Shown one piece after another: positions 6,172-29,951 of a stretch of DNA of 64,000 nt. Below the pieces are notes generated by a model. It saw only the letters and a program-made list of their open reading frames with translations, did not search any database and was not told the DNA's origin. The DNA comes from a virus. A program made the position numbers and the translations under genes. Each line of letters begins with the position of its first letter. Position 1 is the first letter of the stretch. Location of the stretch: positions 87,987 through 151,986 of IMG/VR virus record IMGVR_UViG_3300025087_000036. The stretch is one strand, 5' to 3'.

Positions 6172-6177
6172 AGAATT

Positions 6178-6262: not shown

Positions 6263-6268
6263 AAATTT

Positions 6269-6345
6269 GCCCTTGTAACTCAATTGGCTAGAGTACCACA
6301 TTTGTACCGTGGATGTTTAGGGTTCAAATCCCTACAGGGGCTCCA
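6269..6345 (+). tRNA. tRNA-Thr (TGT)
   Basis: Acceptor GCCCTTG/CAGGGGC, anticodon loop TTTGTAC (TGT) on a CCAC/GTGG stem with one A-C mismatch, T arm TAGGG-TTCAAAT-CCCTA, T73, CCA. Confidence 0.85.
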
Positions 6346-6355
6346 AAAATATTAT

Positions 6356-6432
6356 GCCCGCATATCCCAATTGGAAGAGGAATTGGCTTCAAAACCCAAG
6401 TGATGGTGGTTCGAATCCACCTGCGGGCACCA
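6356..6432 (+). tRNA. tRNA with CAA anticodon (Leu?), class I
   Basis: Acceptor GCCCGCA/TGCGGGC, T arm GGTGG-TTCGAAT-CCACC, A73, CCA are perfect. The anticodon stem TTGGC/CCCAA has a C-C mismatch next to loop TTCAAAA, giving CAA (Leu). A tRNA-Leu should have a long variable arm; this one has 5 nt. Reading the loop one base earlier gives TCA, an opal suppressor, but then no anticodon stem forms. Confidence 0.65.
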
Positions 6433-6509
6433 CTTAACTGAGTTTGCGTTGGTCTTAACTGTGTGACGGGGTGGGGACGTAAGCTCTTCAACAAACGAAA
6501 GGTTATGCG

Positions 6510-6740
6510 ATGATAAAAGTAGAAATAACTGAACAATTCCATGTTGTGAGACAAATTGACTACCCAACACTAAAAATGGAGCCATGTTCTCTCTTAACGG
6601 TTTTATTTGTTTCTCCGAATACAGGTATGGTTCTTAGACCAGGAAAATCTGAATACAAAACAGGAACATATTGCGGTGATTGGCATGAGGGGGCATTTGA
6701 CAGATGGGATGGGGTGTTGGAAGTCAGAAATGATTATTGA
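6510..6740 (+). CDS. Unknown protein, 76 aa
   Basis: ATG after GAAAGGTTATGCG. Beta-rich small protein (MIKVEITEQFHVVRQ...) with a C-G-D-W motif near the end. It starts a five-gene overlapping operon (6510-7873) after the tRNA run. No family recognised. Confidence 0.65.
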   Translation: MIKVEITEQFHVVRQIDYPTLKMEPCSLLTVLFVSPNTGMVLRPGKSEYKTGTYCGDWHEGAFDRWDGVLEVRNDY

Positions 6741-6966
6741 CAATCTAAAGAAATGGTGCTTCTGTTTCTTCTTTCATAGGAAGCACAGATGCTATCCAGA
6801 AGTGTGGAAAGTAGAATTGGGATCTTGGCATTGTGCAAAATGTCATCCGTGTGGGGAAGATTTGGAAACCGTTTTGAAAATGGCTGACAATCTTTTATCA
6901 AAATCAGTTGACCTTGATAGTGACATTCAAAGAGCCGTTAGTGAAAATTTTTGGGATCTGTTATAA
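6730..6966 (+). CDS. Small cysteine/histidine-rich protein, 78 aa
   Basis: ATG at 6730, preceded by GGAAGTCAGAA, overlaps the preceding gene by 11 bp. CFCFFFHRKHRC and WHCAKCHPCG suggest a small zinc-binding fold. Function unknown. Confidence 0.65.
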   Translation: MIIDNLKKWCFCFFFHRKHRCYPEVWKVELGSWHCAKCHPCGEDLETVLKMADNLLSKSVDLDSDIQRAVSENFWDLL

Positions 6967-6978
6967 TGGGAGATAAAA

Positions 6979-7365
6979 ATGGCTAAGTGCAACTGGTATG
7001 GTGAACCACAAGAGGAATTCACATGCCCCCATTGTAATGATCAATTTGATGATAGCGGGTTGTGTTCTTGTGGTAGGGGGCCATGCAATGAACAAACTAG
7101 TAAGAGGATAAACAAAAGAGGACATAAATCATACATTCTTGAATACAGATACACACCAGAGTCTTGGGAAGAATACAAAAAAAGTCGAAGCCTATTTGTA
7201 TTTGGAAAGAACAGAACCAATGTATGGCGAGTAGAAGGTAGATACAGAACAGAAAAAGCCTTGAATGATGCATACAACGACAGGATGAAACGAAAACTTA
7301 CACCAATGAAAACGTGGAATAATGATTGGTATAAACAGTACGAATATAGAAGGGTTTTACCATGA
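6979..7365 (+). CDS. Zinc-ribbon unknown protein, 128 aa
   Basis: N-terminal CPHC...CSCGRGPC (residues 16-36) looks like a zinc ribbon, followed by a basic, tyrosine-rich domain. Start after GGGAGATAAAA. Its stop overlaps the next ATG. No family recognised. Confidence 0.7.
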   Translation: MAKCNWYGEPQEEFTCPHCNDQFDDSGLCSCGRGPCNEQTSKRINKRGHKSYILEYRYTPESWEEYKKSRSLFVFGKNRTNVWRVEGRYRTEKALNDAYNDRMKRKLTPMKTWNNDWYKQYEYRRVLP

Positions 7366-7631
7366 AGGATAGTATAGAACTGTTTGCAAAAGTTATTGCT
7401 ACAATTTTTGTGTGTGCCGCCATTATTTTGGCTGTTGTATTTATCGGGGGTGGGTTTTCTAAAGATAGGGAAGCATACATATCAATCTGGGGTGATAAAT
7501 TTATGGTGATGTTAGATAGGAGCTTTGGCGATGATCGACCATTGTTTATCAGTGAAGATGTGAAAGAAGCAGAGGATTTTTTGGAAAGATGGGATGAGCG
7601 TAAACTTGCAAAGCAGGGGGTTCTGGAATGA
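7362..7631 (+). CDS. Membrane-anchored unknown protein, 89 aa
   Basis: ATGA overlap with the previous gene. One transmembrane helix (VIATIFVCAAIILAVVFIGGG, residues 11-31) followed by an acidic soluble domain. Likely an inner-membrane protein with the C-terminus outside or inside undetermined. Confidence 0.7.
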   Translation: MKDSIELFAKVIATIFVCAAIILAVVFIGGGFSKDREAYISIWGDKFMVMLDRSFGDDRPLFISEDVKEAEDFLERWDERKLAKQGVLE

Positions 7632-7873
7632 AGATAACTACTGTTAGTCGTGATCGTGGGTATGAAGGTATTTCTGGTTTTGAGGTAACAATTGAAACTC
7701 ATGAAGGAAAGCAACACATCTCTGCGTATGATATGTGTGAATGCCCAGAAGACGCAATCATGGATAGAGGTTTAGGGTTCATTTATGATGTACCCCATAT
7801 GCTTAAACTTGCATATGAAGCTGGAAAGAGTGGAGAGGAATTTCTTCTTGTTGAAGAGACAGATGATGAATAA
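7628..7873 (+). CDS. Unknown acidic protein, 81 aa
   Basis: ATGA overlap with the preceding gene. Sequence begins MKITTVSRDRGYEG and ends EEFLLVEETDDE. The stop (TAA) is directly followed by tRNA-Met. No family recognised. Confidence 0.68.
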   Translation: MKITTVSRDRGYEGISGFEVTIETHEGKQHISAYDMCECPEDAIMDRGLGFIYDVPHMLKLAYEAGKSGEEFLLVEETDDE

Positions 7874-7874
7874 T

Positions 7875-7949
7875 GCCGATACGGAATAGAGTCCAACACG
7901 ATCTCATAAGTCGTTAGTCCTAGTGGAGCGTTACCACTTATCGGCACCA
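7875..7949 (+). tRNA. tRNA-Met (CAT), second copy
   Basis: Acceptor GCCGATA/TATCGGC, D stem GGA/TCC, anticodon arm ACGAT-CTCATAA-GTCGT (CAT), T arm AGTGG-AGCGTTA-CCACT, A73, CCA. Differs strongly from the copy at 4411, so one may be a tRNA-Ile whose C34 is modified to read AUA. Confidence 0.8.
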
Positions 7950-7955
7950 AAAATT

Positions 7956-8219
7956 GTGGGAAATGTAAATGACTTTGCCAAACACTAGCTATAATGGTCG
8001 GGGTTGAATTCCGTGACAAATTGGTTTTATAGAGATTGCAATTTGACTTGGGTTCATAAAAAGTTTGGTATTTTCCCACAAGCAAATAGATGGGATGTTT
8101 TCGGGGAAGCAAACCAAAGTGTGCATTTTGCAAGTGAATCATAGTAATATGCTGTTGGGTTGTGGAGTGAAAAATTGGGGTTAACTGATACCGAATATAA
8201 CCAGCATCCCACCAAAAAT
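7956..8219 (+). ncRNA. Two segments each closed by a long inverted repeat
   Basis: GTGGGAAA (7956) pairs with TTTTCCCAC (near 8083), and GGGATGT (8092) pairs with GCATCCC followed by A-CCA (8219). Each segment is about 125 nt, without reading frames, between tRNA-Met and tRNA-Ser. The ends look like tRNA acceptor stems, but no anticodon or T arm folds inside. They could be decayed tRNAs or structured RNAs. Confidence 0.3.
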
Positions 8220-8252
8220 TTTGGGTGGTAGCGCCGTTCTGGATCGGCAAAT

Positions 8253-8337
8253 AGAGGGTGCCGTCAATGGTGACAAATCCGGTTTGAACCCGGAGGGCAG
8301 GTTAAACTGTGGCGTTCAATTCGTCCACCCTCTGCCA
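8253..8337 (+). tRNA. tRNA-Ser (TGA)
   Basis: Acceptor AGAGGGT/ACCCTCT, D stem GTC/GAC, anticodon arm TCCGG-TTTGAAC-CCGGA (TGA), variable arm CAG/CTG, T loop TTCAATT, G73, CCA. Class II as expected for Ser. Confidence 0.82.
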
Positions 8338-8363
8338 AAATTTTTAATTGGTTCGGAGAACCG

Positions 8364-8384
8364 CTCCATATTTATTATATGGAG
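8364..8384 (+). promoter_or_regulatory. Hairpin with late-promoter element, hiding the HNH ribosome-binding site
   Basis: CTCCATAT pairs with ATATGGAG around loop TTATT; TATTTATT occupies 8369-8376; the GGAGG of the HNH gene (8381-8385) is in the 3' strand. Same design as 5039, 25807, 46681 and 51604. Confidence 0.6.
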
Positions 8385-8392
8385 GTACAAAT

Positions 8393-8722
8393 ATGCGTGG
8401 AGGATGGAATAGGGGTACTTATACTCTAATTGAAAGTAACAGAAAGAAAAGGTTCCCAGATAGTCGTGTTTTTGTGGAAAATTCAACTTTTCCAAGACAT
8501 AGATTGAAAAAAAGAATCATTGATGAAAATATGCTTGAATGTAAAAAATGTGCCATATGCGGAATGGAGGCAACGTGGCAAGGGAAACCGATGATATTAA
8601 TACTTGATCATATCAACGGAAAAAACAATGATAATAGACTTGAAAATTTAAGACTTATTTGCAGTAATTGTGATTCACAGTTGCCAACATACAAATCTAA
8701 AAATAGAGCTTTTCGGGGTTGA
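8393..8722 (+). CDS. HNH endonuclease
   Basis: 109 aa from ATG 8393. HNH core: CAICGM (residues 58-63), ILDHINGKNNDNRLENLRLICSNCDSQ (about 75-101), matching the common phage HNH consensus with LDHINGxxxDNRLENLRxxCxNCxxQ. Such proteins are mobile homing nucleases. It is inserted after tRNA-Ser, and only its own hairpin leader precedes it. Confidence 0.85.
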   Translation: MRGGWNRGTYTLIESNRKKRFPDSRVFVENSTFPRHRLKKRIIDENMLECKKCAICGMEATWQGKPMILILDHINGKNNDNRLENLRLICSNCDSQLPTYKSKNRAFRG

Positions 8723-8754
8723 TAGATAGAAAGACAAAAGAAAGAGAGAAAGAC

Positions 8755-9057
8755 ATGATACTAAAAATTCAAAATCCCTCAGAAAACGATGGGATAAGAT
8801 GTGGGTGGGTTTTTATCGATCACATCTTTGAGTGTCAAGTGAGGCATGTTGCAGAGGGGTCCGAAAAGATGAAAGTTTTTTGGGGAGCAAGAAGAAGTGC
8901 AACATATGAAAGTGGTCGCGGATTAGAAGATCCAGCACCGCATTTTATTTGTGTTACTTGCACCTTTGACAACGGAAGAGAAGACGAAGACTATAACGTA
9001 GCTACAGCATCATACCTTCTTGCCGATAGTGGTAAGACGGTAGAAAAATTGTTCTAA
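8755..9057 (+). CDS. Unknown protein, 100 aa
   Basis: I chose ATG 8755 (after AAAGAGAGAAAG) rather than a TTG inside the preceding gene. Protein begins MILKIQNPSENDG; it contains CTFDNGREDEDYN and ends KTVEKLF. Beta-rich, no recognised family. Confidence 0.65.
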   Translation: MILKIQNPSENDGIRCGWVFIDHIFECQVRHVAEGSEKMKVFWGARRSATYESGRGLEDPAPHFICVTCTFDNGREDEDYNVATASYLLADSGKTVEKLF

Positions 9058-9099
9058 GAGAAAAATAGTCAACCCCGAAAAACAAAGGTAGGTTACAAA

Positions 9100-9345
9100 A
9101 TGCCAACTGTTATGAAGACATACTGTGATGTATGCAAGAGTGAAATATCAAATGACTGTTCTGGTGAAAAGGCATATGGACTTGGTGAACCATTCATGGA
9201 CAGGGGGAAGAATTTTTGACAAAGACTGTGTTGCTTCCTAGAACCATCAATTTGGAAAGACGATGGTTGGAAATGGCAACATGGGTGGAATTTCGTAAAT
9301 TTGATTTTTGGAAATCGCTGCGTTGGACTGCGGATCATTGGCTAG
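9100..9345 (+). pseudogene. Probable frameshifted small zinc protein
   Basis: ATG 9100 opens YCDVCKSEI...DCSG and stops at 9219. One frame over, the sequence continues IFDKDCVAS, and then back in the first frame LEPSIWKDDGWKWQHGWN. Read together these give a plausible double-cysteine-pair protein broken by two compensating indels near 9213 and 9235. Alternatively only the 39-aa product is made. Confidence 0.4.
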
Positions 9346-9351
9346 ACTAGA

Positions 9352-9359
9352 TATTTATT
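9352..9359 (+). promoter_or_regulatory. Candidate late-promoter element TATTTATT
   Basis: GATATTTATTG lies 20 bp before the start of the secreted-type phosphoesterase gene at 9380, whose ribosome-binding site AAGGGAG follows. Not part of a hairpin. Confidence 0.45.
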
Positions 9360-9379
9360 GTGAACGCAAGGGAGAATAG

Positions 9380-10162
9380 ATGATCACATTATTTTTGGCT
9401 AGTCTTATTTTCATTGGTGATGTACAGATAAACAGTTTGTCCACCTACCCAGACAGTGTTGCTTCAATCATATCTTCACAGATAGGAAATGAAGTAATCT
9501 ATGATGCTGGGGATGTTGTTGAACATGGGTCGATGTTTGAGGAACAAGAGTACGCTAGATACCAACAACTGTTTCCCAATTCTATTCCAGTACCAGGAAA
9601 TCATGATTGGTATGATGGTCTGGAAAATTGGAATTGGGGCACTAGTGTTAATGTATACGATGAGGGGATTCACGTTGTTGGCTTTGATACACAGCAATAT
9701 TGGAATACAGTTGCCCTTGGAAATCTAAGACAAAACCTAAACGATGGTAAAAATATCACCATACTTTTCATGCACCATCAAGTATATTCTGATAATCTAA
9801 GGAATGGGGCAATATCAAATAGCATTAGACCATACTTGCTTCCCATTATAGAGGGGACAAAAACAAGTTTGGTTATCTGTGGTCATGGTCATGCCTACGA
9901 GAGGCATTATAGCAATGGTGTAACCTACCTAGTTATTGGTGGAGCAGGGGCACCGTTGGATTTGGTTGGAGATAGTGAGACACAAATTATTTCATCTAGT
10001 GAACACCATTGGGTGGAGATTGTTGTAACAAGGACAGGTATACATTGTGTGGTTCATGGGTTGGTGCCAGGACAAGTGATTGATGTTTTTGATATAGCAA
10101 CCCCTGTGTCGAGTGTATCTATCCCAGATGTTAATTATACCATTGGGGGGTTTGTAAAATGA
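9380..10162 (+). CDS. Metallophosphoesterase, purple-acid-phosphatase-like
   Basis: 260 aa. Metal-binding blocks: GDVQ (13-16), AGDVV (41-45), GNHDW, MHHQ, and CGHGHAYERH. The GHxH and GNHD(W) forms are those of extracellular acid phosphatase-like enzymes. The first residues are hydrophobic (MITLFLASLIFIG) but run straight into the first metal motif, so a cleaved signal peptide would remove it; the protein is probably cytoplasmic or virion-associated. Preceded by a TATTTATT element, suggesting late expression; its stop overlaps the next ATG. Confidence 0.88.
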   Translation: MITLFLASLIFIGDVQINSLSTYPDSVASIISSQIGNEVIYDAGDVVEHGSMFEEQEYARYQQLFPNSIPVPGNHDWYDGLENWNWGTSVNVYDEGIHVVGFDTQQYWNTVALGNLRQNLNDGKNITILFMHHQVYSDNLRNGAISNSIRPYLLPIIEGTKTSLVICGHGHAYERHYSNGVTYLVIGGAGAPLDLVGDSETQIISSSEHHWVEIVVTRTGIHCVVHGLVPGQVIDVFDIATPVSSVSIPDVNYTIGGFVK

Positions 10163-10389
10163 AGGCTATTTTGGAGTTTGACTTGCCAGAAGAGAGATCA
10201 GAGTTTAATGCTGCCTCTAAGGGGGTGGATTATTATTTGGTGTTGTGGGATCTTGACCAGTATTTGAGAAACTCTTTGAAGTATGGGACAGCCACAAAAA
10301 TAACACCAGAACAAACATTGGAACTTGTCAGAAAACTTTTGCATGAAAAAATGGAAATTCGTGGCGTATCGTTTGATGATGTAGACTAA
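10159..10389 (+). CDS. Conserved small phage protein, 76 aa
   Basis: ATGA overlap with the phosphoesterase. The sequence EFDLPEERSEFNAASKGVDYYLVLWDLDQYLR matches a small protein found in many phage genomes without known function. Helical and acidic. Confidence 0.75.
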   Translation: MKAILEFDLPEERSEFNAASKGVDYYLVLWDLDQYLRNSLKYGTATKITPEQTLELVRKLLHEKMEIRGVSFDDVD

Positions 10390-10413
10390 ACAAAAGTAAG
10401 AGAAGCTAATGGG

Positions 10414-10602
10414 GTGTTGCAGAACGTAAAAACAGCGATGAATGTCATATTGGCTTACAAGAGATTAACAAAGGTGTCTGACTTAATAGTGGAAAAAATA
10501 GAAAAGAACGAAGGGGTTTCGGTTGATTTGTTGGCTGGGTATAAGATGCACAGGAACGAATTGGCTAAGATCTTGAACGAAATAGACAGGAAGAAGCAAT
10601 GA
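10414..10602 (+). CDS. Small helical protein, 62 aa
   Basis: Starts at GTG 10414 after AAGAGAAG; an overlapping ATG at 10409 is closed after six codons. Mostly helical (VSDLIVEKIEKNEGV...HRNELAKILNEIDRKKQ). Function unknown. Confidence 0.55.
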   Translation: MLQNVKTAMNVILAYKRLTKVSDLIVEKIEKNEGVSVDLLAGYKMHRNELAKILNEIDRKKQ

Positions 10603-10721
10603 GTTTTATGGAGTATAGCACACTCATGAGTACAGTACGCTCCCTTCTTGCAAGAAGAGTGTTTACCATTTCAGAGTACATGCAAGAAACCAAACACATC
10701 CAAAGAACATTCTACAGATAA
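10599..10721 (+). CDS. Small protein, 40 aa
   Basis: ATGA overlap with the previous gene; MSFMEYSTLMSTVRSLLARR..., basic helix. Supported by overlap and by the ribosome-binding site AGGAAGAAGC. No function assigned. Confidence 0.5.
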   Translation: MSFMEYSTLMSTVRSLLARRVFTISEYMQETKHIQRTFYR

Positions 10722-10724
10722 ATG

Positions 10725-10753
10725 TTTACAAATCCATCAACATATGATATAGT
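10725..10753 (+). promoter_or_regulatory. Sigma70-type promoter
   Basis: TTTACA (10725-10730), 17 bp, TATAGT (10748-10753), 31 bp before the exonuclease gene. Confidence 0.65.
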
Positions 10754-10783
10754 TACGGACAACCAAGGGAGAAACAATATCCA

Positions 10784-11737
10784 ATGAAAGATAAAAAATA
10801 CTGTAAACATTGTGGTGGATTGTTGTGGGTGCATGGATCTAAGAAGTTAAGGTCATTAGACAAAAAAGCAAAGCAATATAAGTGTTCTGTTTGTGGGAGA
10901 TTTGAAACAATCAATAGTGTAAGATCAGGGGAAAGCGATATAGTTGATGATTTTCCAGCACCAAAAATTCTTGTGCTTGATATCGAGACAGCACCATCTA
11001 TAGCCTATGTGTGGGATATCTGGGAGCAAAACATAGGGATAAACCAAATAGAAAAGAACTGGCACATCCTATGCTGGGCAGCAAAGTGGTTGGGTGAAGA
11101 ACAGATTATTTGTGATTCCTTGCCGCAACACCCAGCCAAATATAAGAAGAACCCAGAAGACGATTCCAGTATCCTAATTGGAATGTGGAAATTGTTAGAT
11201 GAAGCAGACGTAGTGATAACCCACAATGGGGATAAGTTTGATGTCCCAAAACTCAACACAAGATTCATTCTAGCTGGCATGACACCACCATCCCCATATA
11301 GGTCGATTGATACCCTAAAGGTTGCTAGGGGTGTGTTTGAGTTTACCTCAAATAAACTAGCATACATATCAGAATTTTTGGGGGTTGGATCAAAGATGGA
11401 AACAGGGGGGTTTTCCTTGTGGAAAGGCTGTTTAAGTGGAGATAAAGAGTCTTGGAATTCAATGGTGACGTATAATGCCAATGATGTTAGCATCCTGGAG
11501 GCCGTCTATTTTAAGCTAAGACCGTGGGTAAAGAACCACCCCAACCTTGGGTTGTTTACAGACAAAGGATTGGTGTGCGTGGCTTGTGGTTCGTCTGACG
11601 TTGCTCCTGTTGAGGGTAAGTTTGTCTACACGAATGCCAGCAAGTTCCAATGCTATTTGTGTGATAGCTGCGGAAAATTCATGAGGGGTAGGAAATCCCT
11701 AACAACCAAAGAAGAGAGAAAGAGTCTTTTAGCATAG
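10784..11737 (+). CDS. DnaQ-like 3'-5' exonuclease with flanking zinc ribbons
   Basis: 317 aa. N-terminal zinc ribbon (CKHCGG...CSVCGR, residues 7-39); RNase H-fold exonuclease with Exo I LVLDIETAPS (D66, E68), Exo II ITHNGDKFDVPKLN, and Exo III YNANDVSILE; C-terminal ribbon CVACGSS...CYLCDSCGK. The three acidic blocks bind two metals for removal of 3' nucleotides. It has no polymerase domain; with a stand-alone polymerase core elsewhere (59205) it could supply proofreading in trans, but this is conjecture. Confidence 0.85.
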   Translation: MKDKKYCKHCGGLLWVHGSKKLRSLDKKAKQYKCSVCGRFETINSVRSGESDIVDDFPAPKILVLDIETAPSIAYVWDIWEQNIGINQIEKNWHILCWAAKWLGEEQIICDSLPQHPAKYKKNPEDDSSILIGMWKLLDEADVVITHNGDKFDVPKLNTRFILAGMTPPSPYRSIDTLKVARGVFEFTSNKLAYISEFLGVGSKMETGGFSLWKGCLSGDKESWNSMVTYNANDVSILEAVYFKLRPWVKNHPNLGLFTDKGLVCVACGSSDVAPVEGKFVYTNASKFQCYLCDSCGKFMRGRKSLTTKEERKSLLA

Positions 11738-11739
11738 GT

Positions 11740-11813
11740 GCATCCATAGTTCAATGGTAGAACATTGCCTTCGTAATGTGGAAATTTCGGATCGTTACCG
11801 AATGGATGCTCCA
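11740..11813 (+). tRNA. tRNA-Thr (CGT)
   Basis: Acceptor GCATCCA/TGGATGC, D arm GTTC/GAAC, loop TTCGTAA (CGT), T arm TTCGG-ATCGTTA-CCGAA, T73, CCA. The anticodon stem TTGCC/TGTGG is weak (three G-T pairs and a C-T mismatch). It begins three bases after the exonuclease stop. Confidence 0.7.
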
Positions 11814-11823
11814 AAAAACAAAA

Positions 11824-11846
11824 CTCCCCCAATCAAATGAGGGGAG
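11824..11846 (-). terminator. Intrinsic terminator for the minus-strand gene
   Basis: CTCCCC/GGGGAG stem; on the minus strand it is followed by TTTTGTTTTTT. It lies 20 bp past the stop of the 11867-12415 gene. Confidence 0.7.
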
Positions 11847-11866
11847 CTTGTTCTAGGAGAGGTTGT

Positions 11867-12415
11867 TTAACCATTTCTCCAATAACCCAGGTATGATCCA
11901 GACGTTAGTTTTATGGAGGTTAATCCAGATTGGTTCCACCATACACCGGCAGTTCCAACAGAAGTTCCATCTGGCAATGTTCCGTTGTAGTATACACCAT
12001 CTATGCGTATAGTGTGATACACAGAGTTTGAGGTATAGGTATATGGGGTTGTTCCAATGCCTTGTGGTTGGCCAGAATACAAAGTAGAAATGCTTATGTG
12101 CCCACTAAAGTTACTGTCTGTATTAGATCCACTTATACCAACCCACAATCCTTCACCAGTGGCACCTGTTCCGGTTGCACCAGAAAACCTCAATATAGCA
12201 CAAACTCCAAACTCATTTCCACCACGCGCTGAAAAAATAAGTTGATCATCTGGGGTGTAGATTACGCTTTGTGTTCTTGCTGAGGTTGTTTGTCTCCATG
12301 TCTGTCCAGATGTGGAATATGAAAATGGTGGGGGTGGAACCGCAGCCAAGTTAGCTGTGTCCCTAGCAAGTTCCAACGCTTGGTTGTCTTGCCAATAACT
12401 AGTGGTTCTAGCCAT
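11867..12415 (-). CDS. Unknown beta-rich protein, possibly virion-associated, 182 aa
   Basis: Alone on the minus strand among early genes, with its own AAAGGAG ribosome-binding site, a TATTTATA element 46 bp upstream and an intrinsic terminator. Sequence is rich in S, T, G and aromatic residues (FSGATGTGATGEGLWVGISG, VYHTIRIDGVYYNGTLPDG), resembling carbohydrate-binding or decoration proteins of phage virions. No catalytic motif. The isolated, inverted late-type cassette suggests a moron-like acquisition. Confidence 0.75.
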   Translation of the reverse strand: MARTTSYWQDNQALELARDTANLAAVPPPPFSYSTSGQTWRQTTSARTQSVIYTPDDQLIFSARGGNEFGVCAILRFSGATGTGATGEGLWVGISGSNTDSNFSGHISISTLYSGQPQGIGTTPYTYTSNSVYHTIRIDGVYYNGTLPDGTSVGTAGVWWNQSGLTSIKLTSGSYLGYWRNG

Positions 12416-12460
12416 AGTATTTCTCCTTTGTTTTGTAAATAGTTAACCTAGATTCTATGG

Positions 12461-12468
12461 TATAAATA
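12461..12468 (-). promoter_or_regulatory. Candidate late-promoter element on the minus strand
   Basis: Reads TATTTATA on the minus strand, upstream of the only minus-strand gene in this region; flanked by TTCTAT/ATAGAA pairing. Supports the strand-specific meaning of the motif. Confidence 0.5.
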
Positions 12469-12499
12469 GAAGAAACCTTTGTGAAATGACAAGATTGTA

Positions 12500-12528
12500 T
12501 TTACATTTTCCCTTAAATCTGGTATCCT
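12500..12528 (+). promoter_or_regulatory. Sigma70-type promoter
   Basis: TTTACA (12500-12505), 17 bp, TATCCT (12523-12528), 25 bp before the membrane-protein gene; it restarts + strand transcription after the inverted gene. Confidence 0.6.
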
Positions 12529-12553
12529 TATTAAAACACTTGGAGGTAAACCC

Positions 12554-12820
12554 ATGCGATTTGTTTTTGGTTTTTTGAGTGGAATGCTAGAAGCCACAAA
12601 GTTAGTCTTGGGAGCCATTGTTGGATTGGTTATGCTCTTTATCCCAACAGCAATTGTTGGTTGGTTGGGCGCAATTGTGTTCAATGGTTTACTAGGCACA
12701 CCAATAGACCTTGATCATATGTGGCTTGCAGTAATTCTTTGGTTTCTTTTTGCATCTGCAATCGTAGCGTCTTATTTGTTTGTTCAAATGGTCAACGAAA
12801 AGAGGGGAAAAAATGAGTGA
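12554..12820 (+). CDS. Membrane protein, two to three helices, 88 aa
   Basis: Hydrophobic stretches at about 14-50 (LEATKLVLGAIVGLVMLFIP, AIVGWLGAIVFNG) and 58-78 (LAVILWFLFASAIVASYLFV), basic tail EKRGKNE. Ribosome-binding site TTGGAGGTAAACCC. Possible superinfection-exclusion or lysis-related role, not provable. Confidence 0.7.
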   Translation: MRFVFGFLSGMLEATKLVLGAIVGLVMLFIPTAIVGWLGAIVFNGLLGTPIDLDHMWLAVILWFLFASAIVASYLFVQMVNEKRGKNE

Positions 12821-13085
12821 TAAGTTTCAGAACTGGATAGATGATGGCCAGGAGTTTTCCGATTTTTGTGTTCTGTTTTGCAAGACCTATATTGAAAAAC
12901 AGGGGCATCCAATGGATGAAGGTGAGTTCGAGCGAATAGTTATGTGGTTGCGTGATGCTGAAATAACATCGACAATATTGAACCTTATCAAGAAGGGGTT
13001 GTTTGCCATATCTTTTCCAGAAGATAAGGATGATGCAATGCTTTCTTTGACCAAAGCTGGGATGCATATAGCAGAAAATTTGTAA
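12813..13085 (+). CDS. Unknown protein, 90 aa
   Basis: ATG 12813 (AGAGGGGAAAAA upstream) overlaps the previous stop by 8 bp. MSDKFQNWIDDGQEFSDF..., helical, with ITSTILNLIKKGLFAI. Similar in composition to small phage regulators but no family recognised. Confidence 0.65.
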   Translation: MSDKFQNWIDDGQEFSDFCVLFCKTYIEKQGHPMDEGEFERIVMWLRDAEITSTILNLIKKGLFAISFPEDKDDAMLSLTKAGMHIAENL

Positions 13086-13266
13086 TCTGAAAGTGTAAGT
13101 TCGGAGTTGAAAGCCCTCATGAGAAAAGTTGAAAGGAACGAAACCGATTGAAAACAAACAACTTATAAATTTCTCAAATTTTCTTCATTTTTTTGTTTAC
13201 ATTTCTCCTAAAATAGACGATATTGATGTTGTGGTTGAGATGAAACCCAAACAAGGAGAAAAGGAA

Positions 13267-13413
13267 ATGGATTGGGAATTTGAAGTCATGGATGAAATGT
13301 TCTCCGATGAAAATTGGGACTTCGAAGAACTGAATGAGAGTGACGAGAGCTTTGAGGATGCTATGGCCCTGGAAACAGAAGCCATAATGTTCGAAGATTC
13401 GAAGGAATTCTAA
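13267..13413 (+). CDS. Highly acidic small protein, 48 aa
   Basis: ATG after CAAGGAGAAAAGGAA. About 40 percent D/E (DEMFSDENWDFEELNESDES). Strongly acidic phage proteins often mimic DNA or bind host RNA polymerase or nucleoid proteins; that is analogy only. A weaker promoter-like pair (TTTACA at 13196, GATATT 17 bp on) precedes it. Confidence 0.6.
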   Translation: MDWEFEVMDEMFSDENWDFEELNESDESFEDAMALETEAIMFEDSKEF

Positions 13414-13415
13414 CC

Positions 13416-13571
13416 ATGGTTGCCAAGATCCAAATCGTCAACAAGTTCGTGATCCTGTTTGATGTGGAAAACAACAAGGTGATCAAGGAAGTTGCTTTCT
13501 CTGGGCACCCTGTTATCGCGGAAACCAAAATCCGCGTGTGGGCTAAAAACCATGAAGTGGTGGTGAAGTGA
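13416..13571 (+). CDS. Small basic protein, 51 aa
   Basis: ATG after GAAGGAATTCTAACC. MVAKIQIVNKFVILFDVENNK..., alternating strands, ends HEVVVK. Its TGA overlaps the next ATG (GTGATG). Unrecognised. Confidence 0.6.
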   Translation: MVAKIQIVNKFVILFDVENNKVIKEVAFSGHPVIAETKIRVWAKNHEVVVK

Positions 13572-13798
13572 TGAATCATGGTGTGCTTAGTGGTGTGGTG
13601 GAAAGCTACCATGCAAATTCTTGGGTTGTTCGGGTTCCCTGTTTCTCCAGGGATCACATCTTTGGGGAACACAACATTGGACCATGGCAGATTGCCCCAA
13701 GTCTTAGGGGAATCCTAACAGTTGGGATGAAGGTTAGAATGGTTTATGTACAGGGTCCATCTGTTCGGGGTTGGCATGTAATGGGAGAGGTTGAATAA
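13571..13798 (+). CDS. Unknown beta-rich protein, 75 aa
   Basis: TGATG overlap with the preceding gene. GVLSGVVESYHANSWVVRVP and VGMKVRMVYVQGPSVRGWHV suggest a small beta-barrel (SH3/OB-like) fold. Stop overlaps next ATG. Confidence 0.65.
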   Translation: MNHGVLSGVVESYHANSWVVRVPCFSRDHIFGEHNIGPWQIAPSLRGILTVGMKVRMVYVQGPSVRGWHVMGEVE

Positions 13799-14046
13799 TG
13801 AACGACCACATGCTGGCAATCAGGCTTGGCGAACTCCAGGTGGAAAGGGACATACTTAAGGCTGAGTTGGTACACCTGGAGCAAGATCTTGCTTGTCTTC
13901 GTGATGAGTACGCAAAGATTCACAATGAAGATACTGCCAAGAATATCGCTGGAAAACTGCTTGGTGCTGATTTTCGTTGCAGCTACACCAAGGGTCGGAT
14001 CGAAGAACTGGAAAGCGAAATCAAACTTCTTGTTGGGGGAGACTGA
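13798..14046 (+). CDS. Coiled-coil protein, 82 aa
   Basis: TAATG overlap. Heptad-like pattern through residues 9-40 (LQVERDILKAELVHLEQDLA) and 60-80, so a helical hairpin or dimeric coiled coil is likely. Function unknown. Confidence 0.65.
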   Translation: MNDHMLAIRLGELQVERDILKAELVHLEQDLACLRDEYAKIHNEDTAKNIAGKLLGADFRCSYTKGRIEELESEIKLLVGGD

Positions 14047-14047
14047 A

Positions 14048-14344
14048 ATGGACGTTTACGAACTCATGGAAAATAGGTGGGAAAAGAAAGAGGGTTATAA
14101 AATGATTAAGATGACTGACGCGACCAACAGGGTTAATGGGCGCAACCCCACCCCCGATGTTACCGATGGCAATCGGTATACTGTTGTCACTTCCGGGGGA
14201 GCGGAGGTTAGGATTGAGGTAATGGATGAGAGTTCTTATGCCGATTTGTACTTGATTATGACCGTGAATCATCAAACCTTTGGGTCGGCTTCAATCCAGG
14301 AGCTTATCGATCTGCTAACGGCAATAAGGAACAAGGATCAGTAA
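14048..14344 (+). CDS. Unknown protein, 98 aa
   Basis: ATG 14048 directly follows the previous stop. An internal ATG (MIKMTDATNRVNG, preceded by AAAGAGGG) is an alternative start. C-terminal part is an alternating beta/alpha domain ending IQELIDLLTAIRNKDQ. Unrecognised. Confidence 0.6.
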   Translation: MDVYELMENRWEKKEGYKMIKMTDATNRVNGRNPTPDVTDGNRYTVVTSGGAEVRIEVMDESSYADLYLIMTVNHQTFGSASIQELIDLLTAIRNKDQ

Positions 14345-14345
14345 A

Positions 14346-14456
14346 GTGGACTACATCATTCTAGTTGTGGTGTTTCTTTTGGTGTGCTTCTGTTCGATGA
14401 TGATTAGTTCTGTCTTTGTGAATGAGAAAGTGAGGATTGAAAATGGACTTCAATGA
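14346..14456 (+). CDS. Tiny membrane peptide, 36 aa
   Basis: GTG start; one helix (DYIILVVVFLLVCFCSMMIS) then a short charged tail. Overlaps the next gene by 14 bp. Supported by position and hydrophobicity only. Confidence 0.45.
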   Translation: MDYIILVVVFLLVCFCSMMISSVFVNEKVRIENGLQ

Positions 14457-14598
14457 TTCTTTGTACTACGATGAAGATTACTATAACTCCCTTTATTTTG
14501 GGGGGGACGAAGACGATACCGAATTGGAAGATGATTGGGATGATTACGAGTGTGAAGACGACTACGAAGAAGACGATGATTGGGATAAGGACTACTAA
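14443..14598 (+). CDS. Extremely acidic protein, 51 aa
   Basis: ATG after GAGGATTGAAA. Composition is almost entirely D, E, Y, W (ELEDDWDDYECEDDYEEDDD). Second acidic mini-protein of the region (see 13267); possible DNA mimic by analogy, unproven. Confidence 0.55.
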   Translation: MDFNDSLYYDEDYYNSLYFGGDEDDTELEDDWDDYECEDDYEEDDDWDKDY

Positions 14599-14621
14599 GC
14601 TTTCGAGAAAGGAAAGTTGAA

Positions 14622-14867
14622 ATGAACAGGGACAAGGATTTGACGGTTGAGTTGGATGAAAAGGATCTTGCTAGGGTGAAGAAGTCTGCCAGGAGGAAGG
14701 CGATGATCAAGTATAGCAAGGTTGATCCGACGACCAAGGTTCACAAGACCAAGGTGCGTTACAGCCGTAAGCCAAAGCACAAGGTTGACCCTCTGGATAT
14801 CTTTGTTGAAGATCTGGAGCAAGACAACCAAGAACTTGAAAACCTTATGTTTGAGTTGGGGTGCTGA
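14622..14867 (+). CDS. Basic unknown protein, 81 aa
   Basis: ATG after GAAAGGAAAGTTGAA. Strongly basic middle (KKSARRKAMIKYSK, KVRYSRKPKHK) and acidic tail (FVEDLEQDNQELENLMFE). Suggests nucleic-acid binding. Unrecognised. Confidence 0.65.
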   Translation: MNRDKDLTVELDEKDLARVKKSARRKAMIKYSKVDPTTKVHKTKVRYSRKPKHKVDPLDIFVEDLEQDNQELENLMFELGC

Positions 14868-14868
14868 A

Positions 14869-15066
14869 ATGAAACACGTTTGTGCAGTCTGTGGTAGTAT
14901 CTTGGTTGCAGTTAGCCAAGATTCTGAAATTGTTCTTGTTTTTCCCTGCCAAGTTTGTTTAGGCAAGGAATATGAAGCTGGTCAGGTTGGTCTTTATGAA
15001 GAAAAGAAGCTGTGTAAAGAATTTAAGGACTTTCCCTACAGGAATTCTTATAGAGAGGGTTGGTAA
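14869..15066 (+). CDS. Zinc-ribbon protein, 65 aa
   Basis: CAVCG (residues 5-9) and CQVC (29-32) form a four-cysteine zinc ribbon. ATG directly follows the previous TGA. Function unknown. Confidence 0.6.
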   Translation: MKHVCAVCGSILVAVSQDSEIVLVFPCQVCLGKEYEAGQVGLYEEKKLCKEFKDFPYRNSYREGW

Positions 15067-15149
15067 CAAAAATGTTTCTACCAGATTATTAAACCAGAAG
15101 GATTGCCGATGTCATTACCAAGAAGTTTCCCACTTTTGGTGGGGGCCGT

Positions 15150-15281
15150 GTGAATAAGGACAACCCAATTTCCTTAGCTTTGAAGGATGAACCAAGTATG
15201 TTTGCCGCTGGGGTTGATGTTTACGAAGTGGTGAGACAGGTTGTGCTGGAAATAGGTAGTGAGGGGAGTTATGTGAGATGA
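15150..15281 (+). CDS. Small conserved-looking protein with uncertain start
   Basis: From GTG 15150 it reads MNKDNPISLALKDEPSMFAAGVDVYEVVRQ. The frame stays open upstream to 15090 and reads IADVITKKFPTFGGGRV, which looks like genuine coding sequence without an ATG/GTG/TTG, so the true start may be non-canonical or the 5' end damaged. Its TGA overlaps the next ATG. Confidence 0.5.
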   Translation: MNKDNPISLALKDEPSMFAAGVDVYEVVRQVVLEIGSEGSYVR

Positions 15282-15433
15282 AAACCGTATCAATGTATTT
15301 TCTGATGATCATGATTGGATTCTTGCTGGCTGAAACCAGTTGGACATTTTCAGATTGGCAACCATGGGTTGTGTGTGTTTTGTCTGGAATGTTTATTTCC
15401 TTTCTAGAAGGGAAAGATAATGCATATCGTTGA
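15278..15433 (+). CDS. Small membrane protein, 51 aa
   Basis: ATGA overlap. Two hydrophobic segments (MYFLMIMIGFLLAET, PWVVCVLSGMFISFL). The end overlaps the next gene by 14 bp. Function unknown. Confidence 0.55.
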   Translation: MKTVSMYFLMIMIGFLLAETSWTFSDWQPWVVCVLSGMFISFLEGKDNAYR

Positions 15434-15659
15434 GGTAGTATCAATTTTTAGTGCTTGGCTAAACGATGAGCCAACTTGCATTCTTGATCGTTGGGAAGTA
15501 AGACCTTGGTGTGTACCATGGCAAAATAATCGTGGCATTTTTGAATTGTATGACAGACACGGTTTCGTTGGAACGTATGAGGCAGAATACAAAACTATTA
15601 CCCCCATGCATCTTGGTGTTGATGATATTTATGTGGTAACAGCGATTGAACAAATTTAG
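15420..15659 (+). CDS. Unknown protein, 79 aa
   Basis: ATG after AGAAGGGAAAGATA. MHIVEVVSIFSAWLNDEPTC..., tryptophan-rich beta domain. Its stop TAG is shared with the first base of tRNA-Ser. Confidence 0.65.
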   Translation: MHIVEVVSIFSAWLNDEPTCILDRWEVRPWCVPWQNNRGIFELYDRHGFVGTYEAEYKTITPMHLGVDDIYVVTAIEQI

Positions 15660-15747
15660 GCAAGTTGGCAGAGTTGGCATTGCTCCTGATTGCTAATCAG
15701 CGGACTAGGTAAAACTAGCAAAGGTTCGAATCCTTTACTTGCCGCCA
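15659..15747 (+). tRNA. tRNA-Ser (GCT)
   Basis: Acceptor GGCAAGT/ACTTGCC, anticodon loop TTGCTAA (GCT) on CTGA/TCAG, variable arm CTAG/CTAG, T arm AAAGG-TTCGAAT-CCTTT, G73, CCA. Overlaps the stop of the preceding gene by one base. An isolated tRNA just upstream of the RNA ligase gene. Confidence 0.85.
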
Positions 15748-25847: not shown

Positions 25848-28800
25848 ATGCCTGCATTATCCAAGCAACAGATGACCGAAGAGATCATCAAGTGTTCCGC
25901 TAGTCCAGAATATTACCTACTCAATTATGGTGTGGTGAGAGACCCAAAGGGTGGGTACGTTAAGTTTCAGTTGTATGATTTCCAGAAAGATTGCTTGAGA
26001 GAATTCCAAGAGCATAGATTCAACATCATTCTAAAATCAAGACAGTTGGGTATTTCAACAATAGCAGCAGGTTACATTGCTTGGTTGGTGGCTTTTCATA
26101 AGGCAACAGAGGTTGCAGTTGTGGCAAATAAGCAAGTGAACTCTTCTGGGTTTGTTCGCAAGATAAAGTTGATACTGAAAAAGTCTCCCACTTGGTTGGT
26201 TCCAAAACTTTTATTGGATAACCAGGGTTCAATCGAACTCATTAATGGTTCCAGGGTTATTGCTCACGCCACCACAGATGATGCAGCTAGGTCTGAATCA
26301 TTGACCCTATTGGTTATTGATGAGGCAGCAGCCATTCCTACGAATAAGGTTGAGGACTTGTGGGCAGCAGCTTACCCTACATTGTCAATGGGTGGTGCTG
26401 GTATTGTTATCTCTTGCGTTACACCTGACACTTACATTTACACGGATAGGGGTATAAAGCAAATTGGTGACTATGCAAACCTGGACTTACTTGGTGAACA
26501 AACAGTTGCTTCTTATGGTGTGTTAGGCAAGGATAAACTAAGAACTGGCAGCATAGCTTACAACAATGGAGTGTGTAAAACTAAAATTATATCTACTAGG
26601 AGTGCAAAGCTAGAGGGTTCATTGAATCATAAGCTATGGGCTTTCTCAAATAAAGTTGGAAGATACGATTGGTTTCAATTGAGAGATTTAGAAGTTAATG
26701 ATTTCGTTGCAGTACAGTATGGGATGAATGTCTGGGGAAATAACGATACACTAACCGATTTTCGTCTAACACCAGACCTTAGCACAAACACAACCCTGCA
26801 TGATAACTTTCTTCCAACAGTGATTACACCAGACCTTGCCTATCTCCTGGGTGTGTACATTGCCAATGGATCAATGAGCATAATAAATTCTCAACAGGCA
26901 AATGAACTCATAGGGGGATATGTAAGTTTTGTTTCTATAACCCAGGATATGAAGGATAGATTTACTCTTGAAAATGTAGACATCCAAACCCATACTGACA
27001 ATATTTTTACCACTTCAAAGAACTTCATTGAATTCCTTCTTTACCTGGGCTTTAAACCAGACACAAAGAACACCCAACGCTCCATACCTCCAAGACTATT
27101 GGAGTTGTCTGGGGGCAATCTAGGGGCCTTGGTGAACGGAATTTTTGATTGCAAAGGATTCTCCAGAGCAGACAGAGGGATTGTGTCCATAGGACTTTCC
27201 TCAAAGGTTCTAATAGATCAAATAAGAATCATCCTAGACAACATTGGAATCTTGAGTGAGTACGGGGCAGTCAATGGAAGGAACAGCTACTTTCAATACG
27301 ATACCATCCAGTACAGGTTAACTCTCAATCAATCAGAATCGAAATTGTTCTATGAATTGATTGGGTTCAACTCCCAGGAAAAACAGGATAATCAAAACGT
27401 CCTTCCTATGCTTTGTGAGTTGCCCGGCATTTTGCTACAAAGTCAAGCGATGCGCTCACCAATTGAAAATGAGAATCAAATAATTACATCCCAGACTTGG
27501 CATGATTCTTGCTATAGCAAGTTCTGTGCCAACCAAATCGAACAAAATTCCCCTAGCAAGAATCATACCAGAAATTTTGCAGTTAAAAATCATACAATAA
27601 AACCAAATATCAAAAACTGTGATGGCGAATTTGAGAATCATAATGTTTTGTTGGCTGCTGCTCCGCATGTTAAAAAATTAACAGGCACAGAACTTGAAGG
27701 TATCGGTAAACTCCACCTATTGCCAATTTTGCCTGGCACGCTTCTTGCTAGGGACGAAAATTTTGATGATTTAGAATCAGGAGATGTTAAAACTTTAACA
27801 TGCAGGGACGCAGACAACCAAAAACTTGGAACGAAAATTGCTTCCCAAAATCTTGTTAAACTTTTAACAACCAAAACTGAAATTTCCGGGGAAAAACACA
27901 CTATAGATCAAAATAATCAAAAACCCATAAGGGGTAAAATGAATTGTTTTGACGTTTTGTATGATAAAAAATTAACAACTGGGTTCACAATTTCACAAAA
28001 AGAGAGCATTATAAATCAAACCTTTAGCAAGAATCGTGCCAACTATGGGCTGCCCGACAAATTGCTTACAGATGAAAATGCTAGTCAAAACCAATTTGAG
28101 TGTGGGTCTAGCAAGAATCGTGCCAAACAAAATTCTGTGCAGCCCGGTTTTGGCACAGAACTTGCTATAGCAAGAAACGTGCCAGAAAATTTTGAGGTTG
28201 AAAATGAGAATCAATTAGAAAAAAAATGCCGGGCAGCTAACCAAAGTAATATTACACAAACACTTAGCTCAAAAAACCCAAGTGAGAGCTTCACAAAAAG
28301 TAATATTGTAAAGTCAAGCTCACATGATGTAATACCCAACGGAGTTTATTACTGCAAGTGTTTGTTTGACTTATTACCTTTTGGAACGTGGACGCTGATT
28401 AAGAAGTGGGGTTTGAATATTAATGGGGTACTAAATAAAAAAAGTTTGTACAAAACCCACCATACCTCACGCCAAAACCTATTGAAGCTAAAAAATATTT
28501 GCCTACAAAACACAACCATTCCTAACAAACTAACAATTGAACTAGATAAGATACTCTCACCAAACGTCAAGTGGGAACCTATTCGTAGCATTACAGTTAG
28601 CTCAAACCCTACAGTTGATTTTTCATTGCCTAGCACCAAAAACTCACACAAAATTTCTTCTGAAATTTCAGAAAGTGATATCAACATGATATCATTTTGG
28701 GATCACTCGGTAATATATAACTCAATACTTGGACACCAAACCCCCAAGGGAGTCGGAAATTGGTATCACAAGCAATGGACGCTTGCGGTCAACAAAGAAT

Positions 28801-29951
28801 CTGACTTTAATCCGATAACCATTCATTGGACGGAACATCCATTATACTCTGAAAACTTGGAGTGGATTTGTGCCAGTTGTGGTAATAGACAATTGACAGG
28901 ATCTATGTTCAATGGTGAAGTGCTTTGTGAGATTTGTGCTGAATCTAGTTTTCATCCTACCTCATCTTGGTATGAAAACCAAAAGAGACAGTTAGCTTCT
29001 GACAGGCTTATCGCTCAAGAGTTGGATATGGACTTTCTTGGTTCTGGGGATATGGTTATTGAGAACAAGTATATACTTGAAGCAGAGAAAGAATGTAGAA
29101 AACCTCTATATGAAGGCTTTGAAGTGTTGCAGTACCATAAAAAGGAAGATGTTCCTTTCAGTATGTTCTATAAGAATCTTTGGGTATGGGAAGACCCCAT
29201 TGAAGGCGAAGAGTATTTAATATGTGCGGACGTAGCTAGGGGAGATTCTTCTGATTACTCTGCTTTTCATGTTATCAATTCTAGTGATGAGCAAGTTGCA
29301 GAGTACAGGCATAGACTTCCTCCAGATGAATATGCTGGGTTGTTGTATGATGTTGGAACTCTCTATAACAATGCTTTGATTGTTCCTGAAGCTAATAGCA
29401 TTGGATATGCAACTTGTCTTAAGCTAGTTGACCTTGATTATAAGAACTTATTCTATTCACAAAAGGGAATGTACAGCAAAGAGAAAATGAAAAAGATGAA
29501 TGATCACCCAACCAAACATGATGTCTCTGCTATACCTGGGTTTCAGACAACGAATACTTCTAGGCCACTTATTATTTCTGCATTGGAAGAGGGTATTAGA
29601 GTTGGGAGCTTTAAGATAAGATCTACCAGGACAATTTCAGAGCTTAGGACTTTGGTTTGGATAAATGGAAAGCCTCAAGCTATGCCAGGGTATAATGATG
29701 ACTTGTGTATAGCTGGGGGGATTGGATTGTTTGTTAAGTCTACTCACCTTAAAGACAGATCAAGTGGAAGGGAAGCTGTGGTTGCTGCCTTGAAAGCTAT
29801 GCAAGGGGAAAGTAATCTAGCAGAGAATTCTCTTCCTACAAATAGGGGGTTCATGAATTCTAGGGCAAACCCCAATCCTTGGGTACAGATTGGTCCAAGG
29901 GGAGAAAGAGAAAGTTTGACTTGGTTGATTGATAGAAAACGCAAAGGATGA
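25848..29951 (+). CDS. 17: Terminase large subunit (gp17-like) with intein and zinc ribbon
   Basis: 1367 codons; removing the intein (residues 190-964) leaves 592 aa, normal for gp17. ATPase: Walker A KSRQLGIST (63-71), Walker B LLVIDEAAA (154-162), coupling STPKG formed by extein joining. RNase H-like nuclease acidic residues in ICADVARGDSSDY, VPEANSIG and GYNDDLCIA. The protein pumps DNA into proheads and cuts concatemers. Between the domains an extra CASC...CEIC zinc ribbon is inserted, absent from T4 gp17. Preceded by the late-type hairpin; portal follows after 3 bp. Confidence 0.95.
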   Translation: MPALSKQQMTEEIIKCSASPEYYLLNYGVVRDPKGGYVKFQLYDFQKDCLREFQEHRFNIILKSRQLGISTIAAGYIAWLVAFHKATEVAVVANKQVNSSGFVRKIKLILKKSPTWLVPKLLLDNQGSIELINGSRVIAHATTDDAARSESLTLLVIDEAAAIPTNKVEDLWAAAYPTLSMGGAGIVISCVTPDTYIYTDRGIKQIGDYANLDLLGEQTVASYGVLGKDKLRTGSIAYNNGVCKTKIISTRSAKLEGSLNHKLWAFSNKVGRYDWFQLRDLEVNDFVAVQYGMNVWGNNDTLTDFRLTPDLSTNTTLHDNFLPTVITPDLAYLLGVYIANGSMSIINSQQANELIGGYVSFVSITQDMKDRFTLENVDIQTHTDNIFTTSKNFIEFLLYLGFKPDTKNTQRSIPPRLLELSGGNLGALVNGIFDCKGFSRADRGIVSIGLSSKVLIDQIRIILDNIGILSEYGAVNGRNSYFQYDTIQYRLTLNQSESKLFYELIGFNSQEKQDNQNVLPMLCELPGILLQSQAMRSPIENENQIITSQTWHDSCYSKFCANQIEQNSPSKNHTRNFAVKNHTIKPNIKNCDGEFENHNVLLAAAPHVKKLTGTELEGIGKLHLLPILPGTLLARDENFDDLESGDVKTLTCRDADNQKLGTKIASQNLVKLLTTKTEISGEKHTIDQNNQKPIRGKMNCFDVLYDKKLTTGFTISQKESIINQTFSKNRANYGLPDKLLTDENASQNQFECGSSKNRAKQNSVQPGFGTELAIARNVPENFEVENENQLEKKCRAANQSNITQTLSSKNPSESFTKSNIVKSSSHDVIPNGVYYCKCLFDLLPFGTWTLIKKWGLNINGVLNKKSLYKTHHTSRQNLLKLKNICLQNTTIPNKLTIELDKILSPNVKWEPIRSITVSSNPTVDFSLPSTKNSHKISSEISESDINMISFWDHSVIYNSILGHQTPKGVGNWYHKQWTLAVNKESDFNPITIHWTEHPLYSENLEWICASCGNRQLTGSMFNGEVLCEICAESSFHPTSSWYENQKRQLASDRLIAQELDMDFLGSGDMVIENKYILEAEKECRKPLYEGFEVLQYHKKEDVPFSMFYKNLWVWEDPIEGEEYLICADVARGDSSDYSAFHVINSSDEQVAEYRHRLPPDEYAGLLYDVGTLYNNALIVPEANSIGYATCLKLVDLDYKNLFYSQKGMYSKEKMKKMNDHPTKHDVSAIPGFQTTNTSRPLIISALEEGIRVGSFKIRSTRTISELRTLVWINGKPQAMPGYNDDLCIAGGIGLFVKSTHLKDRSSGREAVVAALKAMQGESNLAENSLPTNRGFMNSRANPNPWVQIGPRGERESLTWLIDRKRKG
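26415..28739 (+). mobile_element. Large intein in the terminase, 775 residues
   Basis: Begins with Cys (GIVIS-CVTPDTYIY), block B GSLNHKLWAF, LAGLIDADG-type endonuclease motifs LLGVYIANGSM and LVNGIFDCKG, and C-terminal block F/G VDFSLPST...HSVIYNSILGHQ followed by Thr. Ending in Gln is known for some inteins. Splicing restores IVIS-TPKGVGNW, the gp17 motor motif. It is roughly 300 residues longer than usual because of a repeat-rich insert (27421-28325). Confidence 0.9.
27421..28325 (+). repeat. In-frame cluster of palindromes and dispersed repeats inside the intein
   Basis: Core 17-mer TAGCAAGAATCGTGCCA occurs at 28025 and 28109, with variants at 27554 and 28168 and inverted at 27734. Two long palindromes, 27497-27532 and 28151-28184, share the design TGGCA-N5-CTTGCTATAGCAAG-N5-TGCCA. 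GTTAAA/TTTAAC palindromes at 27669, 27786, 27855. Direct 17-mer TTGAAAATGAGAATCAA at 27463 and 28198; inverted TGCCCGGCAT at 27421 and 28226. The reading frame stays open throughout but the translation is low-complexity. Confidence 0.8.

Follow-up and report, generated by a model that had tools for sequence, protein, structure and literature searches.

Why does the large terminase subunit gene of a phage carry, within its intein and in a continuous reading frame, ca. 0.9 kb of palindrome-rich DNA, and what might this DNA do? The question is posed by a window of 64,000 nt, the whole stretch of DNA analysed here, which forms part of a virus record of 152 kb.

The terminase gene and its intein

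The T4-like gene for the terminase large subunit (25848–29951, + strand; assigned by tblastn to the T4-like TerL extein) forms an ORF of 1367 aa with an in-frame intein and is open over its whole length; the sequence-only reading of this DNA had noted the absence of a stop over 300 codons of the palindrome cluster. In a Pfam search of the ORF, Terminase_6N remained below the cut-off and LAGLIDADG_3 was matched. The closest named relatives, based on capsid, portal and terminase, share ca. 35–44% identity and have Microcystis and Flavobacterium as hosts.

The intein comprises 775 aa (26415–28739, + strand), extends from C1 to HQ followed by T, and resides at the identical TerL position as the 426–468-aa inteins of other phages. 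Its splice motifs CVTPDT, NHK (with the block B histidine) and HSVIYNSILGHQ followed by T align with those of 15 relatives at a conserved extein site. The hallmarks of a LAGLIDADG-bearing intein, namely C1, the block B His and the C-terminal splice residues, are present. In LAGLIDADG motif 1 (LAYLLGVYIANGSM, 26835–26876, + strand) the acidic residue, which is E in most relatives, is replaced by N, and in motif 2 (LGALVNGIFDCKGFS, 27120–27164, + strand) the DGDG of most relatives has become DCKG. The two catalytic acids of an active endonuclease were not found in the alignment with the 15 relatives, IANG and DCKG standing in place of (S/A)EG and DGDG. The intein is degenerate, its homing endonuclease being devoid of both catalytic acids, with exchanges of E to N and of D to K. 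The TerL inteins of other phages (L290–L306) are inserted at the same point as that of the window and resemble it in their splice motifs and endonuclease region, whereas they are free of an array and, in most cases, have kept the catalytic acids. Further inteins were encountered in phage portal or terminase genes (L008 9003–12296, L009 8129–9439 and L010 9944–11050), some of which apparently consist of two reading frames.

The inserted segment

Between the landmarks 'IGF' and 'IPNG' the intein of the window contains 332 residues versus 33–37 in the homologous inteins, of which three were found first and 15 readable ones in all, at the common TerL point. The surplus of ca. 297 residues or 0.9 kb, in frame inside the intein, corresponds to the segment 27421–28325, the edges of which are uncertain by ca. 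30 nt. As this putative decoy array is missing from the 15 homologous inteins, it represents an insertion into the degenerate intein. The sequence-only reading had envisaged a mobile or structured DNA nested in the intein and had proposed a comparison with homologous inteins. The nesting was borne out by this comparison, the relatives having no conserved domain at this place; the mobile or structured nature was not, given that copies elsewhere and a Pfam or Rfam family are lacking and that the palindrome arms avoid complementarity (see below). The inverted pair TTGCCCGGCATTTT/AAAATGCCGGGCA, which had been described near the segment edges, is indeed present.

The encoded peptide matched no Pfam family, and an Rfam search of the segment gave chance matches only. 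The DNA sites described below fall in all three codon phases. A peptide without a Pfam match and sites read in three phases imply that the information lies in the DNA.

Sigma-54 and Rex-type sites in the insert

The repeated core TAGCAAGAATCGTGCCA, for which at least five copies in both orientations had been claimed, was detected six times when no more than 2 mismatches were allowed; the copies lie in both orientations and entirely within 27498–28184, versus 0.1 copies expected by chance, and 3 mismatches add a single outlier at 62668. A search of the 152-kb record for the core beyond the insert, which the earlier reading had recommended, yielded no other copy at 2 mismatches. Read on the opposite strand, the 17-bp core is recognizable as the sigma-54 (RpoN) promoter box TGGCACG-N4-TTGC.

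Potential sites were scored with a matrix derived from 24 sigma-54 sites that are bound in Salmonella according to ChIP (PMC3844500). On the + strand lie site 1 (TTGGCATGATTCTTGCT, 27497–27513, 20.5 bits), site 4 (CTGGCACGCTTCTTGCT, 27733–27749, exact consensus, 21.2 bits) and site 8 (TTGGCACAGAACTTGCT, 28150–28166), and on the − strand site 2 (TTGGCACAGAACTTGCT, 27516–27532, 19.7 bits), sites 6 and 7 (both TTGGCACGATTCTTGCT and exact, 28026–28042 and 28110–28126) and site 9 (CTGGCACGTTTCTTGCT, 28169–28185, exact). Two weak RpoN-like sites complete the set, site 3 (CTGGTATGATTCTTGCT, 27555–27571, − strand, 12.6 bits) and site 5 (TTGGAACGAAAATTGCT, 27826–27842, + strand, 10.6 bits), the N4 of the latter being different. 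Sites 1 and 2 as well as 8 and 9 converge, and they coincide with the two palindromes of 34–36 bp that had been recognized earlier (27497–27532 and 28150–28185). The repeat unit is, however, an asymmetric site of ca. 17 bp with a variable 4-bp spacer rather than a palindrome, and about half of the copies are unpaired.

The seven strong sites hold the top seven matrix scores of the 152-kb record (19.7–21.2 bits versus a training median of 20.0), the best score outside the insert being 15.1 bits; Markov genomes produced 0–1 matches. Eight sites deviate from the consensus by at most 1 mismatch, all of them in the insert, compared to 0.6 expected for the whole record and to none in 1000 codon shuffles of the insert. 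Judged by the pattern TGGCAYG-N4-TTGCW at fixed spacing and by scores within the experimentally bound range, seven sites qualify as probable sigma-54 sites and two as weaker ones.

The insert also contains the three GTTAAA/TTTAAC palindromes (TGTTAAAA/TTTAACA) of the sequence-only reading, at 27668, 27785 and 27853, along with a degenerate fourth at 27962. A pattern search for TGTTAA-N4-TTAACA found three exact occurrences in the 152-kb record, all in the insert, and one near-match besides. They apparently constitute Rex-type operators: TGTTAAAAAATTAACA (27668–27683), TGTTAAAACTTTAACA (27785–27800), TTGTTAAACTTTTAACAA (27853–27870), which conforms to the full 18-bp consensus, and, with 1 mismatch, TGATAAAAAATTAACA (27962–27977). 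Measured against the Rex consensus of Clostridiaceae, TTGTTAANNNNTTAACAA (PMC8457756), one operator is complete and two are exact in the core. RpoN and Rex-type sites together account for every palindrome of the segment with arms of at least 6 bases. Fur boxes, suspected from AATGAGAATCA, were dismissed because a match of 13/19 is nothing unusual in the record, exactly 13 being reached at 77 places, and DnaA boxes were not found in the insert.

Occurrence and evolution of RpoN arrays in other phages

RpoN arrays recur at ca. 250 viral loci in IMG/VR, the larger of which comprise ca. 100 unrelated groups, mostly in non-coding gaps; IMG/VR may include host fragments, yet terminase genes adjoin several array loci. 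Exact RpoN cores within 30 bp of each other form 108 convergent pairs, 64 divergent pairs and at least 120 tandem stretches in IMG/VR, the convergent pattern being expected less than once by chance (our estimate, assuming equal base frequencies and ca. 50 Gb). The loci carry clusters of 2–12 sites, and neighbours are preferentially separated by gaps of 1–5 bp when convergent, 3–8 bp when divergent and 7–12 bp in tandem. Searching 30 array records over their whole length revealed ca. 120 exact sites versus none for a reversed control pattern. The TATA-centred palindrome was present in 6 viral contigs versus none in 257 Gb of bacterial and archaeal genome contigs, and BLAST searches with the arrays gave no matches in plasmids and E. 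coli. In 88 of the 101 unrelated groups with at least three sites, the arrays are mostly situated outside ORFs of at least 150 aa; the window array, in frame and intein-borne, is exceptional. None of the 15 relative inteins contains an RpoN site.

Within families of related arrays, 145 alignments revealed a divergence of 9.6% for the consensus bases, 18.4% for N4 and 22.5% outside the sites, pooled values that are dominated by one 16-member family. Taken family by family, the order of site below N4 holds in 9 of 11 families (sign test, p = 0.065). In related phages, the RpoN contact bases hence change about half as fast as the spacer of the same site.

Among named phages, paired or clustered RpoN sites were detected in the Pseudomonas phages EM and vB_PpS_SYP and in the T5-like Vibrio phages VCPH, VF16, D419 and D260. 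Matches to a pooled array query came from 288 phage records and from no plasmid; Vibrio phages, many of which are near-identical, make up 286 of these records. All exact RpoN sites, all exact SOS boxes and most DnaA boxes of VCPH, VF16, D419 and D260 share a common zone of 3–5 kb, which lies near homologues of the T5 pre-early genes, i.e. the first-entering DNA. The corresponding terminal repeat of T5 is the first-step-transfer DNA, which enters first (AY543070). Its non-coding regions (L317 6121–6213 and 9411–9658) contain two exact SOS, three DnaA and 1–2 Fur boxes, and one of these two stretches is the annotated injection stop signal. The T5 regions (AY543070) thus resemble the arrays in their SOS, DnaA and Fur boxes, to which RpoN sites are added in the T5-like Vibrio phages; they differ from the window array in being non-coding, in their position at the genome end and in the absence of an RpoN site from the first-step-transfer stretch of T5 itself.

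Sites of other host regulators

Enrichment was assessed within 300 bp of the arrays relative to the rest of the same contigs, with related arrays counted separately. For regulators other than sigma-54 and Rex, generally known consensus sequences were used. DnaA boxes (TTATCCACA) were found 30 times versus 1.0 expected, NtrC-type sites 11 versus 0.8, Fur sites 5 versus 0.3, parS 3 versus 0.1 and the Rex core 2 versus 0; GANTC, NtcA and NifA patterns were not enriched within this distance. A de novo motif search near the arrays recovered the NtrC and Fur dyads, and in 7 contigs an exact SOS (LexA) box lies at most 30 bp from an RpoN core. One Rex site beside an RpoN site (L289) looks like a chance occurrence.

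Three further observations concern individual patterns. The dyad GTGAG-N2-CTCAC (as in TTAGTGAGTGCTCACT, L199 and others), likewise recovered by the de novo search, is enriched in 7 unrelated array groups and looks like a TetR-family operator. At L245 3077–4313, three exact chromosomal parS sites (GTTTCACGTGAAAC) are interleaved with RpoN sites and adjoin terminase genes. At L022 1650–5700, many GAAC-N4-GTTC palindromes (TCGAACGTTYGTTCGA), perhaps phage operators or LexA decoys, occur near sigma-70-like promoters together with ca. 25 RpoN-like sites.

Functional implications

In view of the dense sites confined to an insert in an intein, of the recurrence of such arrays with sites of other host regulators in many unrelated phages and of the slower change of the contact bases in related phages, we consider it fairly probable that the insert is a DNA decoy (sponge) array which titrates the host regulators sigma-54 and Rex. 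A phage-encoded RpoN is absent from the 152-kb record. Each phage genome presents nine sigma-54 boxes, of which seven are strong and two weak, along with four Rex-type operators. Sigma-54, free or in its holoenzyme, would bind to the boxes and Rex to the operators, yet productive transcription would not ensue, since the closed complexes of sigma-54 are silent in the absence of an activator. As these complexes bind and await the activator, extra sites would sequester the factor without giving rise to RNA. Once a few tens of phage genomes are in the cell, their nine sites each could dominate. The sites on replicating phage DNA could outnumber the ca. 70 sigma-54 sites of a bacterial genome (PMC3844500) and draw the regulators off host promoters, whereby sigma-54-dependent programmes would be damped. 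Within an essential gene, the intein might provide a stretch whose DNA is free to vary provided that the reading frame is not interrupted, since splicing removes the encoded peptide, and the region of the inactive endonuclease may be a tolerated parking space. Clustered high-scoring sites with conserved contacts, as appropriate for a titration locus, are present, the conservation deriving from other phages and not from the window phage.

A more general proposal, on which we consider the balance to be even, is that many tailed phages carry multi-target sponge loci for sigma-54, LexA, DnaA, NtrC, Fur, ParB and Rex which act as DNA only, in T5-like phages from the first-entering DNA, the sponge of the window being accommodated in frame in a degenerate intein. 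As such loci would act as DNA alone, gene expression would not be needed. Several considerations count against the decoy interpretation. Cyanobacteria are not known to possess RpoN, which is relevant in view of the Microcystis-phage relatives, and close convergent pairs can probably not hold two holoenzymes simultaneously. The sites of other phages face gene starts more often than not, and the conservation of the sites taken family by family reaches 9 of 11 only. Searches of the open-licence PMC literature yielded no report of sigma-54 decoys in phages.

Clusters of binding sites that titrate a DNA-binding protein are familiar from the datA-type loci of bacterial chromosomes, which titrate DnaA. 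The present arrays differ in being phage-borne and in combining at one locus sites for host sigma-54, Rex, LexA, NtrC, Fur, ParB and DnaA, titration being here a prediction from the sites. The genome of mycobacteriophage L5 likewise bears numerous asymmetric regulator sites, the stoperators; these are dispersed and bound by the phage's own repressor, whereas the array sites are clustered and match host regulators.

That the sites are instead working sigma-54 promoters, through which the host factor would control the expression of phage genes or of antisense RNA, with the Rex sites providing redox regulation, appears unlikely. In site sequence and matrix score they do resemble functional sigma-54 promoters, including the intragenic ones known in Salmonella (PMC3844500); NtrC-type enhancer boxes stand beside some arrays, and in other phages the sites point towards gene starts more often than away (134 versus 77), so that some may be promoters. 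The window sites are, however, dense and arranged on both strands and in facing pairs inside terL, a single coding gene, without an apparent gene to drive. A sigma-54-dependent promoter would be expected upstream of and facing its gene together with an activator site, and this arrangement is absent: no activator site was identified in the insert. Moreover, both orientations coexist in 70 of the 101 array groups, convergent pairs 1–5 bp apart would occlude each other, and 6–12 boxes are needless for one promoter.

We regard it as rather improbable that the clusters are landing platforms on which DNA-binding proteins of the host assemble for a structural task of the phage, be it the initiation of replication (DnaA), partition (parS), the onset of packaging close to the terminase or, as with the injection stop signal of T5-like phages, a pause in DNA entry. 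The co-occurrence of DnaA boxes and parS with the arrays would fit, as would the T5 boxes in two non-coding stretches, one of them the injection stop signal. Proximity to a terminase gene is about twofold commoner for arrays than for control ORFs from their loci (15 versus 7 for phrog_2); given this modest excess, a strong link between array and terminase was discarded. Against platforms speaks that the mix of sites varies by phage and includes the metabolic regulators NtrC, Fur and Rex, which have no structural role, and that the window array, which is free of DnaA boxes, lies in a coding intein of a T4-like record of 152 kb.

A mobile or structured palindromic element, similar to Rickettsia palindromic elements (RPEs) or REPs, inserted in frame and amplified in the intein, is very improbable. 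Rickettsia RPEs are palindromes that do insert in frame, and the insertion is clean in comparison with the 15 relatives. Yet the dispersed copies that characterize RPE and REP families are missing from the 152-kb record outside the insert, the N4 spacers vary between copies and are non-complementary in the palindromes, and the same site grammar recurs in unrelated phages without common flanking sequence. Across 138 distinct convergent pairs, pairing of the inner N4 bases would amount to 28.6% versus 33.9% for shuffled partners, an argument against hairpin selection; a hairpin or RNA function was rejected on the basis of this complementarity below random and the Rfam result. The 36-bp palindrome might finally bind some other dimeric regulator, with an incidental likeness to RpoN sites, but this scarcely credible option is consistent with palindromic pairing at a preferred spacing and at odds with the many unpaired sites of the window, with substitutions that obey sigma-54 rules (C/T at −21, W at −11, free N4) and with scores typical of experimentally bound sites.

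If the decoy interpretation is correct, phages would rewire host transcription through binding sites alone, without protein or RNA, by a new takeover route active from the moment of DNA entry. Unexplained non-coding repeats of phages, including those of the T5 first-step-transfer region, would obtain a function, natural sigma-54 decoys would be on offer, and the intein would act as a neutral store of DNA-level information in an essential gene.

Further features of the window

The window contains 16 tRNA genes in its first quarter (1781–15747), including three for Thr and two for Leu. The intein alignment also disclosed a second small insertion of 14–16 aa (28641–28694), which harbours the palindromes TTCTGAAATTTCAGAA and TGATATCA-N3-TGATATCA, among them a perfect one of 16 bp. 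These palindromes, with their CodY-like core TTTCAGAAA, might be recognized by a further regulator of the host.
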